Shown here in pieces: positions 480 through 7,992 of a stretch of DNA of 20,339 nucleotides. Below the pieces are notes generated by a model. It saw only the letters and a list, made by a program, of their open reading frames with translations, ran no database searches and was not told the DNA's origin. The DNA comes from a virus. The position numbers were made by a program, and so were the translations under genes. The stretch spans positions 1-20,339 of IMG/VR virus record IMGVR_UViG_3300005581_000177. One strand, written 5' to 3'. Each line of letters starts with the position of its first letter. Within the stretch, counting starts at the first letter, position 1.

Positions 480-508
480 GCCCGCTACCCCGCGTTGGGT
501 AAGCGGGC
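480..508. terminator. Hairpin between convergent operons
   Basis: GCCCGCTACCC and GGGTAAGCGGGC form an 11-bp stem with one bulged A and a CGCGTT loop. It lies between the plus-strand gene ending at 450 and the minus-strand gene whose TAG stop is at 485-487, inside the hairpin. Only two T residues follow on the plus side, so it is a weak intrinsic terminator. It may serve both directions. Confidence 0.5.
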
Positions 509-1087
509 TTCCGGCGTTCCTGAGCCATCCTCAGCGCTTCTGGAGGCATCCGAGGCGAACCGGGACCGGAACTTCGCCATCGCGGCGTCAAACTCGGCCT
601 TCTGCGCGTCGGTCATGGCCGAGTACTTGCCCGAGGGCCTCGACCCCTCGACCGGCAGGGCCACCGCCCGGCGCAGCTGGTGCCGCAGCGCCTTCGCCTG
701 CGCGACCTCGGCCTCGAGGTGCTCGACCAGCTCGGCGTAGCTCGGAAACCACCGGAACTTGCGCGCCGCCGCGTCGAGGCTTGACCGCGTGAACGCGCTG
801 GCCGGGAATTCCAGCATCGCCGCGTAGGCCCGAACCTTCGCCAGCCCGTCCGCCTCGCCCGGCCTCGTCGCCGTCAACGTGCCGAGCGCCGTCACGAACC
901 GCTCGGCCAGCGCCTGCGGTGCGGGCTGCAGCGCGGCTTCGGCGGCAACCAGCGCGCGCTCAGCCTCGGTCTTCTGCGTCGAGGAAATCGACAACGGAGC
1001 GCCCGGCTGCTCGGTCTGCATCCTCCCGAGCAAGGCGCTCAGCGTGAACGATAAACCCGTTGCGTTCGGTGCGAGATCCTGTGCCAT
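485..1087 (-). CDS. Putative replication accessory protein (helicase-loader-like position)
   Basis: This 200-residue protein starts at the ATG at 1087, with AAGGAAG about 8 bases upstream on the minus strand. The N-terminal third is Ala-rich and helical. The middle reads as a helical module ending in a FRWFPSYAELVEHL segment; such a 'fP..aEl' pattern resembles lambda P-type helicase loaders that follow initiator genes. It lies directly downstream of the DUF1376 replication gene, the position of a P analogue. Its first 128 bases overlap the end of that gene in another reading frame, which is unusually long. A start at Met23 (1021) would still overlap. Loader function is inference; the family was not recognised outright. 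Confidence 0.6.
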   Translation of the reverse strand: MAQDLAPNATGLSFTLSALLGRMQTEQPGAPLSISSTQKTEAERALVAAEAALQPAPQALAERFVTALGTLTATRPGEADGLAKVRAYAAMLEFPASAFTRSSLDAAARKFRWFPSYAELVEHLEAEVAQAKALRHQLRRAVALPVEGSRPSGKYSAMTDAQKAEFDAAMAKFRSRFASDASRSAEDGSGTPEARLPNAG

Positions 1088-1799
1088 TGCCCTGCTTCCT
1101 TTCACTGCTGCGGCGCACCCAATTCCTCCAGGTCGCGCTCCAGTTGACCTTCCGCCCGTCCGCGCCGGGCTTGCTGTGCCAGTAGTCCCTGAACGACGCC
1201 GCCTCGCGCTCGACCGCGACGCCGAGGCTGCCGGCGAAGGCGCGGTCCTCGTCCGAAGGCGACCAATCGTCCGGCAGGCGCGTTCCGCGGTCGGCGCGCT
1301 CTGCGCGCTTCCCCCCAGACCCCCCAGAACCAAGAACAGGTCCATGAGTATCTCTTTCCGAAGGAAAGGGTGGTTGTGGTTGTGGTTGTGGTTGTATGCA
1401 CGTTACGTTGGTCGTTACGTCCGACGTTACGTTCATCGTTACGTTGTCCGTTACGTTGCGCGCGGCCCTCGCGGCGGTCGCGGCCTCGGTGCGCCGCTTG
1501 CGCGCGTCGTAGAGGCGGGCGGCCTCGGCCAGTTCGTGGTCGATCCGGCCATGACGGATCTGACCGGACGAGACCGCGAAGAACGCAAGCACCGCGTCAC
1601 GGTTCTCGATCCACTCGTCAGGCGTCATCCTGGCCGCTCGAGCGAGCGCGTCGTCGCTCAGACGCAGCGGGCCGCCGGCTCGCCAGTAGGCCATGATGAG
1701 GTGGAGGTAGGCGCCGCTCTGGGCGGCGGTCAGATGCGCCGTGTCCGCGAGGTAGTCCGCGACGTACAGCGGCATCCAGCTATCTGGTCGTCCTGCCAT
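960..1799 (-). CDS. DUF1376-domain phage replication protein
   Basis: This 279-residue protein starts at the ATG at 1799, with GGAGA 6 bases upstream. Residues 7-90 match the DUF1376 (YdaU-type) pattern: WMPLYVADYLADTAHL, then a helical stretch, W at 38-39 and a second helix-turn region. Residues 115-133 are a five-fold NVT-type repeat and 136-143 are QP repeats; both are low complexity and encoded by DNA repeats. Residues 205-230 (DYWHSK...NWSATWRNWVRR) match the C-terminal DNA-binding segment usual in phage primosomal/initiator proteins. Family knowledge places DUF1376 proteins in phage replication, like lambda O. The internal repeats look like an origin. It precedes the possible loader gene and overlaps it. 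Confidence 0.85.
   Translation of the reverse strand: MAGRPDSWMPLYVADYLADTAHLTAAQSGAYLHLIMAYWRAGGPLRLSDDALARAARMTPDEWIENRDAVLAFFAVSSGQIRHGRIDHELAEAARLYDARKRRTEAATAARAARNVTDNVTMNVTSDVTTNVTCIQPQPQPQPPFPSERDTHGPVLGSGGSGGKRAERADRGTRLPDDWSPSDEDRAFAGSLGVAVEREAASFRDYWHSKPGADGRKVNWSATWRNWVRRSSERKQGNGTGSRTERNGFIVHAERLAREDADRAAGRSVVDFLDAEDRG
1372..1395. repeat. GGTTGT hexanucleotide repeat, four copies
   Basis: Four perfect tandem copies of GGTTGT encode alternating Gln-Pro on the minus strand. They sit between the 12-bp repeats and a dyad. A simple repeat like this can arise by slippage, but here it forms the strand-asymmetric part of the candidate origin. Confidence 0.9.
1401..1456. repeat. Five direct repeats CGTTACGT, 12-bp period
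   Basis: Five perfect 8-bp copies start at 1401, 1413, 1425, 1437 and 1449, separated by variable 4-bp spacers (TGGT, CCGA, TCAT, TGTC). In the minus-strand protein they encode the NVT repeats between the two folded domains. The conserved octamer with free spacers looks like selection on DNA rather than on the protein, though a coding explanation is possible. Confidence 0.9.
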
Positions 1800-2145: not shown

Positions 2146-2394
2146 TCAGATCCCGAGGTCCAGCTGGACGCCCAGCCGGTCGGCGTAGAGCGTCACCGCC
2201 TGCAGCCGCTCCTGCTCGCGCGCCCGCTTGCGCTCGTCGCGCCGCAGCTGCACGACGCGCACCAGCGCCGCCGGGTCGTAGCCCGCGCTCTTGATCTCGA
2301 CCTTCAACTCCTTGAGGTCAGCGCGCATCTCGTCGGCGGCGTCGAGAATGTGGGTAAGGCGCTCCGCGTAGCGCTTCAGGTCGTCATTCGTCAT
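2146..2394 (-). CDS. GapR-like (DUF2312) nucleoid-associated protein
   Basis: This 82-residue protein starts at the ATG at 2394 with GGAGGAG about 8 bases upstream. It matches the GapR/DUF2312 pattern: an N-terminal helix (RYAERLTHILDAADEM), a long coiled coil with K/E-rich heptads, then GYDPAALVRVVQLRR, corresponding to the conserved 'G.d...lr.virlR' segment, and a final helix (RLQAVTLYADRLG). GapR in Caulobacter binds overtwisted, AT-rich DNA ahead of replication and stimulates topoisomerases. The gene overlaps the end of the RusA-like gene by 11 bases, so it belongs to the leftward DNA-metabolism operon. A role in phage DNA topology is inferred. Confidence 0.85.
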   Translation of the reverse strand: MTNDDLKRYAERLTHILDAADEMRADLKELKVEIKSAGYDPAALVRVVQLRRDERKRAREQERLQAVTLYADRLGVQLDLGI

Positions 2395-2752: not shown

Positions 2753-3486
2753 GGCGACCCTCCTTCCGCGCTGCGGCTCTCGGCCAGCATTGCCCCGCTC
2801 GACCCGGTCATGCTGCGCTCAACCAGCGGCGGCGTCCATCGCAGCAGGCGCTGCGGGCGGATGAGGTGCGCCGGGATGTCCTCGTACCTGCGGCCGCGCA
2901 TCAGCTTCGGCCAGAGCTTCTCGGCGCGCGCGACGCAAGCCTCGGGATCGGTCGAGCGCGTCTCGGGCTCGGCGATGTCCTCGAAATCCGCGATGGTCGG
3001 CGCGATGGGAGCCACCGTGCGCCCGAGCGCGAGCGCCTGCCGGCCCGTTTCGGTCAGCCGAACATACGTCTTGGCGACCTCGATCAGCCCGCGCCGCCGC
3101 AGGCTGTGAACGCCGCTGTGCAGGCGCACCCGATGCGTGATCTGCGCGCTCCACGCGAGCCATGCGTCGATCGGCGCCTCGCCGCCAACCGCGTCGAGGT
3201 ACTCGACGACGAGCCGGGTGTAGCCGTTCGACACCGCCGCCTTGAACCGCGAGCCGCGATGCACCTTCTTCGCGGGCGTAAACCAGTAGGTCCAGCCGCA
3301 CTCGGGCTGCTTGCGCGGAGCGTAGTCGCTGTCTACCAGCTCGCGGCGCTTCAAGTGCGCGAGGGCCATCAACACCAACCCCCTGTCCATGCCGGGCAGA
3401 ACTTCGCACAGCCGCTGCGTCGAGGCGCGTCCGCCCTCGGCACGCAGCGCGTTGGACACGCGCTCGATTGCGGTGTCGCGCTTCAT
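2749..3486 (-). CDS. Tandem winged-helix DNA-binding-type protein, unknown role
   Basis: This 245-residue protein starts at the ATG at 3486, which overlaps the repressor stop (ATGA), with GAGG about 7 bases upstream. The open frame runs much further upstream, but that part crosses the control region and is not credible. Residues 5-48 look like a winged helix (helix, ASTQRLCEVLPG, recognition-type helix, RRELVDSD wing). Residues 95-160 look like a second one (YLDAVGGEAPIDAWL ... HSLRRRGLIEVAKTYVRLTETG). The C-terminal 80 residues are acidic then basic. Coupling to the repressor suggests a regulator or a replication factor. No specific family was recognised. Confidence 0.7.
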   Translation of the reverse strand: MKRDTAIERVSNALRAEGGRASTQRLCEVLPGMDRGLVLMALAHLKRRELVDSDYAPRKQPECGWTYWFTPAKKVHRGSRFKAAVSNGYTRLVVEYLDAVGGEAPIDAWLAWSAQITHRVRLHSGVHSLRRRGLIEVAKTYVRLTETGRQALALGRTVAPIAPTIADFEDIAEPETRSTDPEACVARAEKLWPKLMRGRRYEDIPAHLIRPQRLLRWTPPLVERSMTGSSGAMLAESRSAEGGSP

Positions 3487-4686: not shown

Positions 4687-4829
4687 CCACCGAGAAGCGC
4701 AAGCTGCTGCGGGTCTATCGCAGCATGATCAAGCGCGCGGCCCACGCCCCGCGCGGCAAGAAGCAGTCCCGCCTCGCCGCCCTGCGCGGCTGGGTCCACA
4801 GGCAGATGAAGAGGGAGATCGAAAAGTGA
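4683..4829 (+). CDS. Small basic hypothetical protein, 48 aa
   Basis: This 48-residue, strongly basic protein is coupled to both neighbours (ATGA at its start, GTGA at its end). About a third of its residues are Lys or Arg, spread over two predicted helices, which would suit nucleic-acid binding. It lies directly before the RecE-like gene and may assist recombination, but no family is recognised. Confidence 0.6.
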   Translation: MTTEKRKLLRVYRSMIKRAAHAPRGKKQSRLAALRGWVHRQMKREIEK

Positions 4830-5695
4830 TCAACGACGGCATCCACAACGACGTCTCGTTCGAGGCGTACCTGAGCGCCGAGGCCTTCGCGGCCCCGGCG
4901 GTCAGCGGCAGCGACCTCGTCTCGTACGAGACCGAATGCCCGGCCCACGCCCACGCCTTCTGGCGCGGCAACCCGGCCCGCGTCCACCGCGAGCCGAGCG
5001 CGTCGATGGCGTTGGGGACCGCCGCGCACGCGTATATCTTGGAGGGCGCCGAGGCCTTCCATCAGCGCTTCTCGGTCAAGCCCGAGGGGCTCAATTTCTC
5101 GACCCGAGAGGGCAGGGCTTGGCGCGAAGAGCAAGGCGACCGGCAGATCGTCAGCTTCTCCGACCACATGCGGATCGTCGGGATGCGCGAGGGCCTCATG
5201 CGCAACGCCGACGCCCGCCGCTTGCTGGAGGCCGGCGGCCGCGCCGAGGTCACGATGGTCGCGAAGGACGAGGAGACCGGGCTCACGTTGCTGTGCCGCC
5301 CCGACCTCTACATCTCGCGCGCCGGGCTGGCGGTGAACCTCAAGACCACCGCATCGCCCGCGCCGAACTCCTGGCGCAAGACCGCCGCCAATCTCAGGTA
5401 CGACCTCGGGGACGCGATGTACCGGCTGGTCGCCGGCATTCTTGGCATCCAGCGCCCGACCCATGCGTTCATGGTGGTCGGCAACGACGAGCCCCACCTC
5501 GGCTACGTCGCGGCCCTGTCCGCCGACGCCGCGAGCGCCGCCGACCAGCAGCTGCGCCAGATCCTGCGCCGCTTCGCGAAAAGCGTTGCGGATGATAGCT
5601 GGCCGGGTTACACCACGGGTGTAGTCGAAATCGGCCTGCCGCAATGGGCCGCCAACGAGATCGCAACCAGCATTCAGAAGGGATACGCGCAATGA
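4826..5695 (+). CDS. RecE-like (DUF3799, PD-(D/E)XK) exonuclease, altered active site
   Basis: This 289-residue protein starts with GTG at 4826, overlapping the previous stop, with GAGGGAG about 10 bases upstream. It matches the RecE C-terminal/DUF3799 fold: LGTAAHAYILEG (His68, equivalent to the RecE active-site His), LLCRPDLY (Asp160), then VNLKTTAS (Lys173), and YDLGDAMY (Tyr192, Tyr199). RecE-type enzymes digest one strand of duplex ends to give a 3' tail for RecT. Here the metal-binding Asp two residues before the lysine (DxK in RecE) is Asn171, and the usual Gln of the QxxxY motif is Gly195. The enzyme may be weak or inactive. It is followed immediately by the recT-like gene (ATGA overlap). 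Confidence 0.8.
   Translation: MINDGIHNDVSFEAYLSAEAFAAPAVSGSDLVSYETECPAHAHAFWRGNPARVHREPSASMALGTAAHAYILEGAEAFHQRFSVKPEGLNFSTREGRAWREEQGDRQIVSFSDHMRIVGMREGLMRNADARRLLEAGGRAEVTMVAKDEETGLTLLCRPDLYISRAGLAVNLKTTASPAPNSWRKTAANLRYDLGDAMYRLVAGILGIQRPTHAFMVVGNDEPHLGYVAALSADAASAADQQLRQILRRFAKSVADDSWPGYTTGVVEIGLPQWAANEIATSIQKGYAQ
5586..5624 (+). promoter_or_regulatory. Second operator (TTACAC-N5-GTGTAG) with promoter-like context
   Basis: TACAC and GTGTA, separated by 5 bases, form an inverted repeat at 5609-5623, the same form as O1 at 3699. Six bases TTGCGG at 5586-5591 stand 16 bases before it, matching the spacing of the early promoter. The site lies in the 3' end of the nuclease gene, 68 bases before the recT-like start, and could be a repressor-controlled internal promoter. 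Confidence 0.4.
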
Positions 5696-6627
5696 CCAAC
5701 GAGATCGCCACCAACGTCGTGAACCTGCCCGCCGTGTCGGACTACGATCCGCTCGCGCCCGCGCACTTCGAGCATTCGCAGCGCGTCGCGAAGATGTTCG
5801 CCGCCAGCGAACTCGTCCCGCCGCACCTGCGCGGCAAGATGGCCGACTGCCTCATCGCCTACGCGATCGCCAAGCGCACGCGCGAGGAGCCGCTGGTCGT
5901 CCTGCAGAACATCTACTTCGTCAGCGGGCGCGCGGGCTGGTCGGCCACGTACATGATCGCCAAGGCCAACCGCTCGGGCGTGTTCGCGCGTCGCATCAAC
6001 TGGCACGTCGTTGGCGAGGGCAAGAACCTGCGCGTCACCGCCTTCGCCACGCTGGCCGACAGCGGCGAGCCGGTCGAGGCCACCGCGTCGATGGCGATGG
6101 CCGAGGCCGAGGGCTGGACGAAGAACCCGAAGTACCGGACGATGCCCGACCAGATGCTGCGCTACCGCAGCGCCACGATGCTCATCCGCCTCTTCGCGCC
6201 CGAGGTCATGATGGGCCTGCCGGTCGCGGAGGAGATCGACGTTGTCCAGGCGCGCGGCCCGGCCAGCGCCATCGACATCACCCCGCCATCCACCCCCCTC
6301 GCCGCCGTCAGCGCCGCGATGGACGCACTCCTCGATGCCACCGAACAAGAGGCCGACAACATCGCGCCGGCCGCGTCGGATGCGGAGCCTTCTCCCTCCG
6401 CAGCCTCCTCACCAGAGGCCCCGACCGGCGCAACTCTCTCCCCCGAGCTGGCCGAGCGCGGCCGCGCCATCGTCGCGGCGATCCGCAAGGCGGCGAGCGT
6501 CAAGGACATCGACAAGATCATGCTGGCCCAGCGCGGCAATCTCGACGACATCAGCGCCGCGTCGCCCGACGCGCACGAGCGCATCATGGAGGAGAGCCGC
6601 CGCCGGGTTGCGGATCTGGCTGGTTGA
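5692..6627 (+). CDS. recT: RecT-family single-strand annealing protein
   Basis: This 311-residue protein starts at 5692 in an ATGA overlap with the nuclease gene. Residues 30-190 match the RecT core: AASELVPPHLRGKMADC, the EPLVVLQNIYFVSGRAGW stretch, MIAKANRSG, and W...KYRTMPDQMLRYRSATMLIRLFAPEV. RecT proteins coat single strands and anneal them during phage recombination. Residues 205-260 are an Ala/Pro/Ser-rich linker with low complexity, followed by a helical C-terminal domain of about 50 residues, a common place for partner interactions in such proteins. It pairs with the RecE-like gene upstream; if that nuclease is inactive, RecT could rely on a host nuclease. Confidence 0.9.
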   Translation: MTNEIATNVVNLPAVSDYDPLAPAHFEHSQRVAKMFAASELVPPHLRGKMADCLIAYAIAKRTREEPLVVLQNIYFVSGRAGWSATYMIAKANRSGVFARRINWHVVGEGKNLRVTAFATLADSGEPVEATASMAMAEAEGWTKNPKYRTMPDQMLRYRSATMLIRLFAPEVMMGLPVAEEIDVVQARGPASAIDITPPSTPLAAVSAAMDALLDATEQEADNIAPAASDAEPSPSAASSPEAPTGATLSPELAERGRAIVAAIRKAASVKDIDKIMLAQRGNLDDISAASPDAHERIMEESRRRVADLAG

Positions 6628-7726: not shown

Positions 7727-7992
7727 GGCAAGGCGTGGTTGGGCTTGGTGTGGTGGGGCATGGCAGGCAGGGCGCGGCGAGGCACGGCTCGGCACGTCAG
7801 GGCACGGCAAGGCAGGCGCGGCGCGGCTGGGCTGGGCATGGTACGACGAGGCCAGGCAGGCACGGCGGGGCTGGGCGGGGTAAGGCGTGGCGGGGCAAGG
7901 CAGGCGAGGCGCGGCGCGGCGTGGCTGGGCGCGGCACAACGAGGCAGGCGTGGCATGGCATGGCCCGGCCCGGTGAGGCCCGGTGAGGCAGG
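7724..7992 (+). repeat. Array of 49 YNNGG pentamers and 6 CAGG tetramers
   Basis: From the upstream gene's stop codon to the next gene's ribosome binding site, the sequence divides without remainder into 49 pentamers of the form YNNGG and six CAGG tetramers (49x5 + 6x4 = 269 bp). Position 1 is always a pyrimidine, C in 41 of 49. Positions 4-5 are GG in all but three units (CACGT, TACGA, CACAA). Positions 2-3 vary freely. The tetramers start at 7764, 7813, 7857, 7901, 7945 and 7989, after 8, 9, 8, 8, 8 and 8 pentamers, so the array has a 44-bp superperiod. No stretch looks coding; open frames across it on both strands follow from the repeat. It fits a G-rich, transcribed element. Confidence 0.95.

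Follow-up and report, generated by a model that had tools for sequence, protein, structure and literature searches.

Helix-phased repeats within DUF1376 genes are constrained as DNA and are likely to form phage replication origins

Origins of replication situated inside initiator genes are known for phage lambda and the lambdoid phages. In lambda, ori lies within gene O, where iterons and an easily opened tract are found between the DNA-binding and C-terminal domains (PMC7466680). The question addressed here, of whether genes of the DUF1376 family carry an origin of comparable design, is raised by a 20,339-bp virus record (the whole of which is referred to as the window), in which a minus-strand DUF1376 gene (1799 to 960) contains a cluster of short repeats. 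An original prediction, made from sequence alone, had proposed a lambda-like origin inside this gene. The nearest cellular relatives of the phage are mostly Alphaproteobacteria, e.g. Bosea and Methylorubrum.

The gene (960–1799, minus strand; stop codon 960–962) encodes an initiator-like protein of 279 amino acids, for whose families the PHROG annotations are 'primosomal protein' and 'replication initiation protein'. A Pfam scan returned DUF1376 only (PF07120; E = 8.6e-22, residues 8–91, 77.8 bits against a curated cut-off of 30.1), the Phage_rep_O N-terminal domain (PF04492) being absent from the protein. The DUF1376 domain, encoded at 1527–1778 (minus strand), was modelled by AlphaFold2 with a pLDDT of about 90 and is presumed to be an iteron-binding winged helix; the resemblance of the model to that fold is only weak, and its best PDB matches, to CRP/FNR and MarR proteins, were non-significant (E values of 0.03 and up). 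The C-terminal domain (1089–1289, minus strand) is common to all three of the cassettes described below and to phage replication initiators, with tblastn matches over residues 170 to 240, approximately, to 'replication initiation' proteins and matches to PHROG 1408 and 1032. A DnaT-domain match in the close relative L018 was weak (E 0.002) and fell under Pfam's cut-off. Residues 123–169, within the interdomain linker, are predicted by AlphaFold2 to be disordered (pLDDT < 50). The gene 3' of the DUF1376 gene (485–1087, minus strand) occupies the position of a helicase loader and encodes a helical protein of unproven identity, for which no Pfam, PHROG or PDB-fold match and no recognisable loader homology were found. 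In the nine relatives tested, the next gene encodes a DnaB-type helicase, a DnaC/IstB-type ATPase or a Toprim primase.

Other features of the window were noted in passing. A gene for a GapR-like (DUF2312) DNA-binding protein (2146–2394, minus strand) lies near the initiator gene, and DUF2312 is found beside DUF1376 in a Bradyrhizobium phage too. GapR binds overtwisted DNA, and a role for the GapR-like protein near a phage origin is conceivable. A recombination module, comprising a PDDEXK-like nuclease (DUF3799) and, after it, a RecT-like annealing protein, is encoded at 4751–6627 (plus strand), and a dense, GC-rich, degenerate tandem array (periods of 5, 10, 15 and 44; GGCA and GGCGCGG units) is located between two genes at 7727–7990, where both strands have long open frames.

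Within the linker, five copies of CGTTACGT start at 1401, 1413, 1425, 1437 and 1449, in exact 12-bp steps, forming an iteron array (1401–1456) that is over 340 bp inside the gene. These are the only copies in the 20,339-bp window, for which 0.30 would be expected by chance, and none of 100 shuffles reached five; the degenerate core CGTWACG is likewise confined to the array. A hexamer tract, (GGTTGT)4, at 1372–1395 reads as (ACAACC)4, free of G, on the coding strand, and only two further copies of GGTTGT occur elsewhere in the window. Both arrays were picked up by Tandem Repeats Finder; since the gene is on the minus strand, their coding-strand readings are ACGTAACG and CAACCA. The tract is adjoined by a dyad, CTTTCC-GAA-GGAAAG (1354–1368). 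Iterons, tract and dyad all lie between the DUF1376 and C-terminal domains, in or beside the stretch predicted to be disordered, and each of these elements of the original prediction, i.e. five iterons at 12-bp spacing, four GGTTGT hexamers and a dyad in the interdomain linker, was confirmed.

Since the array of the window is in frame, encoding NVT-D, NVT-M, NVT-S, DVT-T and NVT-C, relatives were used to separate constraint on the DNA from constraint on the protein. Sixteen virus contigs (L002–L017) carry the same cassette, and codons were counted over seven distinct arrays of this type. The valine codon in the arrays is GTA in 24 cases and GTT in 7, with neither GTC nor GTG among the 31, although GTC and GTG are the common valine codons of this phage and GTA and GTT together account for just 37 of the 243 valine codons in the main genes of the window. 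Indeed, five of the ten GTA codons in those genes sit in the iteron array. Threonine is encoded by ACG in 31 of 31 cases, whereas the codon between the repeats is of 10 kinds. Replacement of GTA by GTT is the only wobble change in the arrays, and it does not disrupt the odd palindrome CGTWACG. In distant DUF1376 genes, the NVT peptide is lost and iterons are kept in other frames, GCAATGC, for example, being read as SNA, AM or QC. A palindromic core (CGTWACG, GCAWTGC) was considered as a rule, but it holds for several cores and not for all.

The generality of the repeats was examined in a collection of 235 DUF1376 genes, drawn from viral contigs, from the genomes of bacteria and from E. coli, which were reduced to 60 non-redundant genes at 70% identity. 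Of eight viral scans, three yielded few or no relatives (none for L112 and L102, a single locus for L114). In each gene, the 75 codons that follow the domain were searched for exact 7-mer repeats, and the counts were compared with synonymous-codon shuffles of the same gene, in which protein and codon usage are kept. For the 60 linkers, the ratios of observed to expected repeat pairs were 5.64 in frame, 5.58 out of frame and 3.09 inverted, as opposed to 1.94, 1.77 and 1.38, respectively, in the DUF1376 domain itself, 1.86, 1.65 and 1.40 in the next 75 codons past the linker, and 1.56, 1.29 and 1.08 in 580 control windows from 187 other genes in the same loci. The out-of-frame excess can be attributed neither to protein selection nor to tandem duplication of whole codons. 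As a positive control, lambda O gave significant out-of-frame repeats (p = 0.003) where its iterons are annotated, and its C-terminal third gave none; the lambda record annotates four ori iterons, the starts of which are 20, 24 and 23 bp apart. The E. coli ydaU linker was significant in the same test. Repeats in DUF1376 linkers are constrained as DNA, a conclusion that for the array of the window itself rests on codon choice and on the relatives.

The spacing of the repeats was analysed from the distances between repeated 6-mers, with tandem tracts masked, again in comparison with synonymous shuffles. Across the 60 genes, peaks were observed at 11 bp (41 versus 8.1 expected) and 12 bp (40 versus 20.9), and also at 22–24 and 33–35 bp, spacings that correspond to one, two and three helical turns. 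Pooled phased distances numbered 194 versus 67.9 ± 8.0, whereas the remaining distances numbered 76 versus 64.4 ± 7.2. The excess persisted in the 20 genes with domain identity below 50% (67 phased distances versus 22.6 ± 4.6), and other genes showed no peaks at the phased spacings. The list of distances had been chosen after seeing the 60-gene data and was hence applied unchanged to 18 fresh genes, in which 68 phased distances were found versus 18.8 ± 4.1, the maximum in 300 shuffles being 33; off-phase distances in this set were mildly raised (34 versus 21.8 ± 4.2). The linker iterons are phased with the helix and recur across the DUF1376 family. Phasing was significant in 25 of the 60 genes taken singly and, at p ≤ 0.05, in 13 of the 18 fresh ones; as the others lack individual support, a degenerate linker, or an origin at another site, is possible for some members of the family.

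Taken against these data, the comparison of linker repeats at the DNA and protein levels proposed in the original prediction has been carried out, and the idea survived and was generalised. The result that would have refuted it, with NVT kept and the octamer scrambled synonymously, is the opposite of what was found in the relatives, and its suggestion that the NVT and QP peptides are by-products of selection on DNA is supported by the codon choice and the out-of-frame repeats. It had also been anticipated that recurrence of NVT-type repeats would imply a general design. Here the generality held, but the NVT peptide as the recurrent feature did not; the feature that recurs is an 11–12 bp phased iteron array, the sequence of which varies by cassette.

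The hexamer tract was found to have counterparts elsewhere, with a period-6 or period-7 tract present in 30 of the 60 linkers, mostly just after the iterons, versus 2 of 729 control windows. The composition of the tracts on the coding strand is 36% A, 41% C, 20% T and 3.8% G, such that the 'AT-rich' part of the predicted origin is better described as a G-poor hexamer or heptamer tract. The pooled AT excess over the local mean was +0.095 ± 0.013, with its peak in the 30-bp bin starting 120 bp past the domain, which coincides with the usual position of the tract. A given tract unit can be read in different frames, as with CAACCA, which encodes QPQP in the window and NHNH in L092. By inference, and without melting data, the tract would serve as an unwinding or strand-loading element. 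A capacity to form G-quadruplexes was rejected as a general feature, since the tracts of types A, B and C looked G4-capable but others (antisense TTGTGA repeats) did not. Similarly, the dyad is present as predicted but its general role failed: its arms are kept solely in relatives with the type A cassette, where the loop codon is TCG, ACG or ATG, and it is absent from types B and C.

Comparison of close relatives revealed that the N-terminal half in front of the shared C-terminal domain comes in three versions, designated types A, B and C. In blastn comparisons of L003, L027 and L019, the flanks of the cassette are 93–96% identical on both sides, with no identity inside, which places the exchange cassette of the window, comprising DUF1376 domain, iterons and tract, at 1338–1799 (minus strand). 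When type A (L003) is aligned with type C (L027), 95% identity extends until 6 bp before the start codon, is followed by approximately 500 bp of nothing, and is then restored at 96%, while between L003 and type B (L019) identity picks up again at 3466, right after the tract and dyad. Type B has three copies of GTTCAAC, 12 and 11 bp apart and in three reading frames, and then a heptamer tract (ACCCATT...), and type C has two copies of TCCGTTACGGA and a GGAGA-rich tract. Since the block is replaced between flanks of 93–96% identity, the domain, repeats and tract travel together as a single unit, leaving the C-terminal domain and the gene after it in place; this is shown, albeit with metagenomic contigs. 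Co-transfer of this kind is the behaviour that, by inference, would be expected of an initiator carrying its own binding sites.

Some further observations were made on the exchange junctions. The cassette junction (L003:3466–3500 and relatives) lies at a conserved GGGGGTGCAGGGGGG stretch common to many type A and B members, which could conceivably be a recombination hotspot. Two E. coli Rac phages (L120 and L121; ydaU) have the N-terminal half and linker in common but unrelated C-terminal halves, the joint being directly after a GATACA tract, and in another Rac phage the C-terminal half is shared and the N-terminal half is different, representing the same modular swapping in E. coli.

The most likely interpretation is that the DUF1376 linker is a phage replication origin and the DUF1376 protein its initiator, although there are no binding, melting or replication data. 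This reading is favoured because DNA-constrained, helix-phased repeats are a recurrent feature of the DUF1376 family and are transferred along with the DUF1376 domain, and because the lambda O iterons are detected by the same test, a G-poor tract adjoins the repeats and replication genes follow in nine relatives. The prediction of a lambda-like origin inside the gene withstood every test run, with the start of replication there remaining an inference. By analogy with lambda O (PMC7466680), the N-terminal DUF1376 domain would bind 7–9 bp iterons, and since these are one helical turn (11–12 bp) apart, several protomers are proposed to line up along a single face of the DNA. The bound array would then strain and open the adjacent G-poor hexamer or heptamer tract, at which the C-terminal domain, together with the helicase or helicase-loader product of the neighbouring gene, may load the replicative helicase.

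Three alternative explanations were considered. The first is that the repeats act as operators, bound by the DUF1376 protein or by some different regulator, and govern how the replication operon is transcribed as opposed to governing initiation. A DNA-binding domain beside its own repeats would suit autoregulation, and initiator sites often have both roles. However, the array is placed far into the gene, no sigma-70-like promoter was detected in 900–2200, the CGTWACG core has no copy upstream, and a phased array with an adjoining G-poor tract is an origin-like pair, the known lambda O iterons standing out in the same test; a purely regulatory role therefore appears very improbable. Secondly, the array could serve some other DNA function, such as partition, incompatibility, packaging or as a recombination target. 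Iterons occur at sites of these kinds as well, and the cassette is a recombination unit, but in diverse phages and prophages the repeats are found together with the DUF1376 domain, and a replication gene is next in the nine relatives tested, leaving this explanation with little to recommend it. Finally, selection of the repeats as protein (a flexible, low-complexity linker) or their origin as recent neutral tandem duplications, despite the predicted disorder of the linker and the in-frame array with NVT kept, can be virtually ruled out, since different-frame repeats are as strong as same-frame ones, spacings of 11, 22, 23, 34 and 35 bp are not multiples of three, cores and rare valine codons are kept while spacers vary, and the three type B GTTCAAC copies occupy three frames.

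The origin reading can be set against known systems. In DUF1376 genes, as in lambda, iterons and tract are inside the initiator gene and between two domains, and the lambda O iterons respond to the test used here for the DUF1376 linkers. The differences are that DUF1376 replaces the Phage_rep_O N-terminal domain; that the DUF1376 cores are 7–9 bp long every 11–12 bp, whereas lambda iterons are 18 bp long every 20–24 bp, i.e. the former are half as long and one turn apart as opposed to two; and that a repeated G-poor hexamer or heptamer tract takes the place of the simple AT-rich stretch of lambda. Over its C-terminal half, E. coli YdaU is similar to proteins that carry the annotation of lambda O homologues. 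The DUF1376 system is likely to work like a lambda-type origin, but it falls outside the lambda O family. An active origin, oriJ, is stated to be present in the E. coli Rac prophage (PMC3945230), the ydaU of which is a DUF1376 gene with a DnaC/IstB-type gene next to it and a significant linker, the iterons of which, unlike those of the window, are TGTTCAAACA-like and accompanied by a GATACA tract. With the exact position of oriJ relative to ydaU not located here, this is an independent hint in favour of the origin reading. Mycobacteriophage RepA-like initiators resemble the protein of the window in the C-terminal domain, but the matches cover only that part of the query and not DUF1376. For some mycobacteriophage RepA proteins (Miko, Rachaly and Jeeves), which may or may not be those matched here, repA itself or the DNA immediately upstream of it is the suspected site of the origin (PMC7157519), and in the same study the interval from the tail genes to parS-L was reported to lack repeated motifs. 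In Francisella phage KIRK, iterons within the replication-protein gene ORF43 belong to a putative lambda-like origin; the product of this gene has a peptide repeat (PMC7924643) but is of another protein family (Phg_2220_C). No description of such an origin for DUF1376 or ydaU was found in the literature searched, which largely did not cover subscription journals.

In an exploratory analysis, initiators with an FWxxYPRK C-terminal domain and no DUF1376 hit (L278–L340) were also found to have phased linkers, at 10–11 and 20–23 bp in 25 non-redundant sequences. At the preset distances, these 25 gave 72 versus 25.9 ± 4.9, with 19 versus 3.0 at 10 bp and 23 versus 2.9 at 11 bp; intragenic iterons may therefore be general among phage initiators. 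A bolder reading, which could as readily prove wrong as right, is that of a general origin code, in which several initiator families with unrelated N-terminal domains embed short, helix-phased (10–12 bp) iterons and a G-poor repeat tract in the interdomain linker, in any frame, with domain, iterons and tract forming a mobile specificity cassette and peptides such as NVT, SNA, SPSPSP and QPQP arising as by-products of the DNA. If true, such peptides could mark the origins of thousands of phages that are as yet unannotated.

For the DUF1376 family itself, these results propose a function, that of an origin-binding initiator, for a domain of unknown function that is common in prophages and phages, and would explain the repetitive peptides of its members as coding by-products. 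The position of the origin, and the pairing of initiators with iterons, would become predictable from sequence alone for many uncultured phages, in which replicon specificity may be exchanged as a compact cassette.
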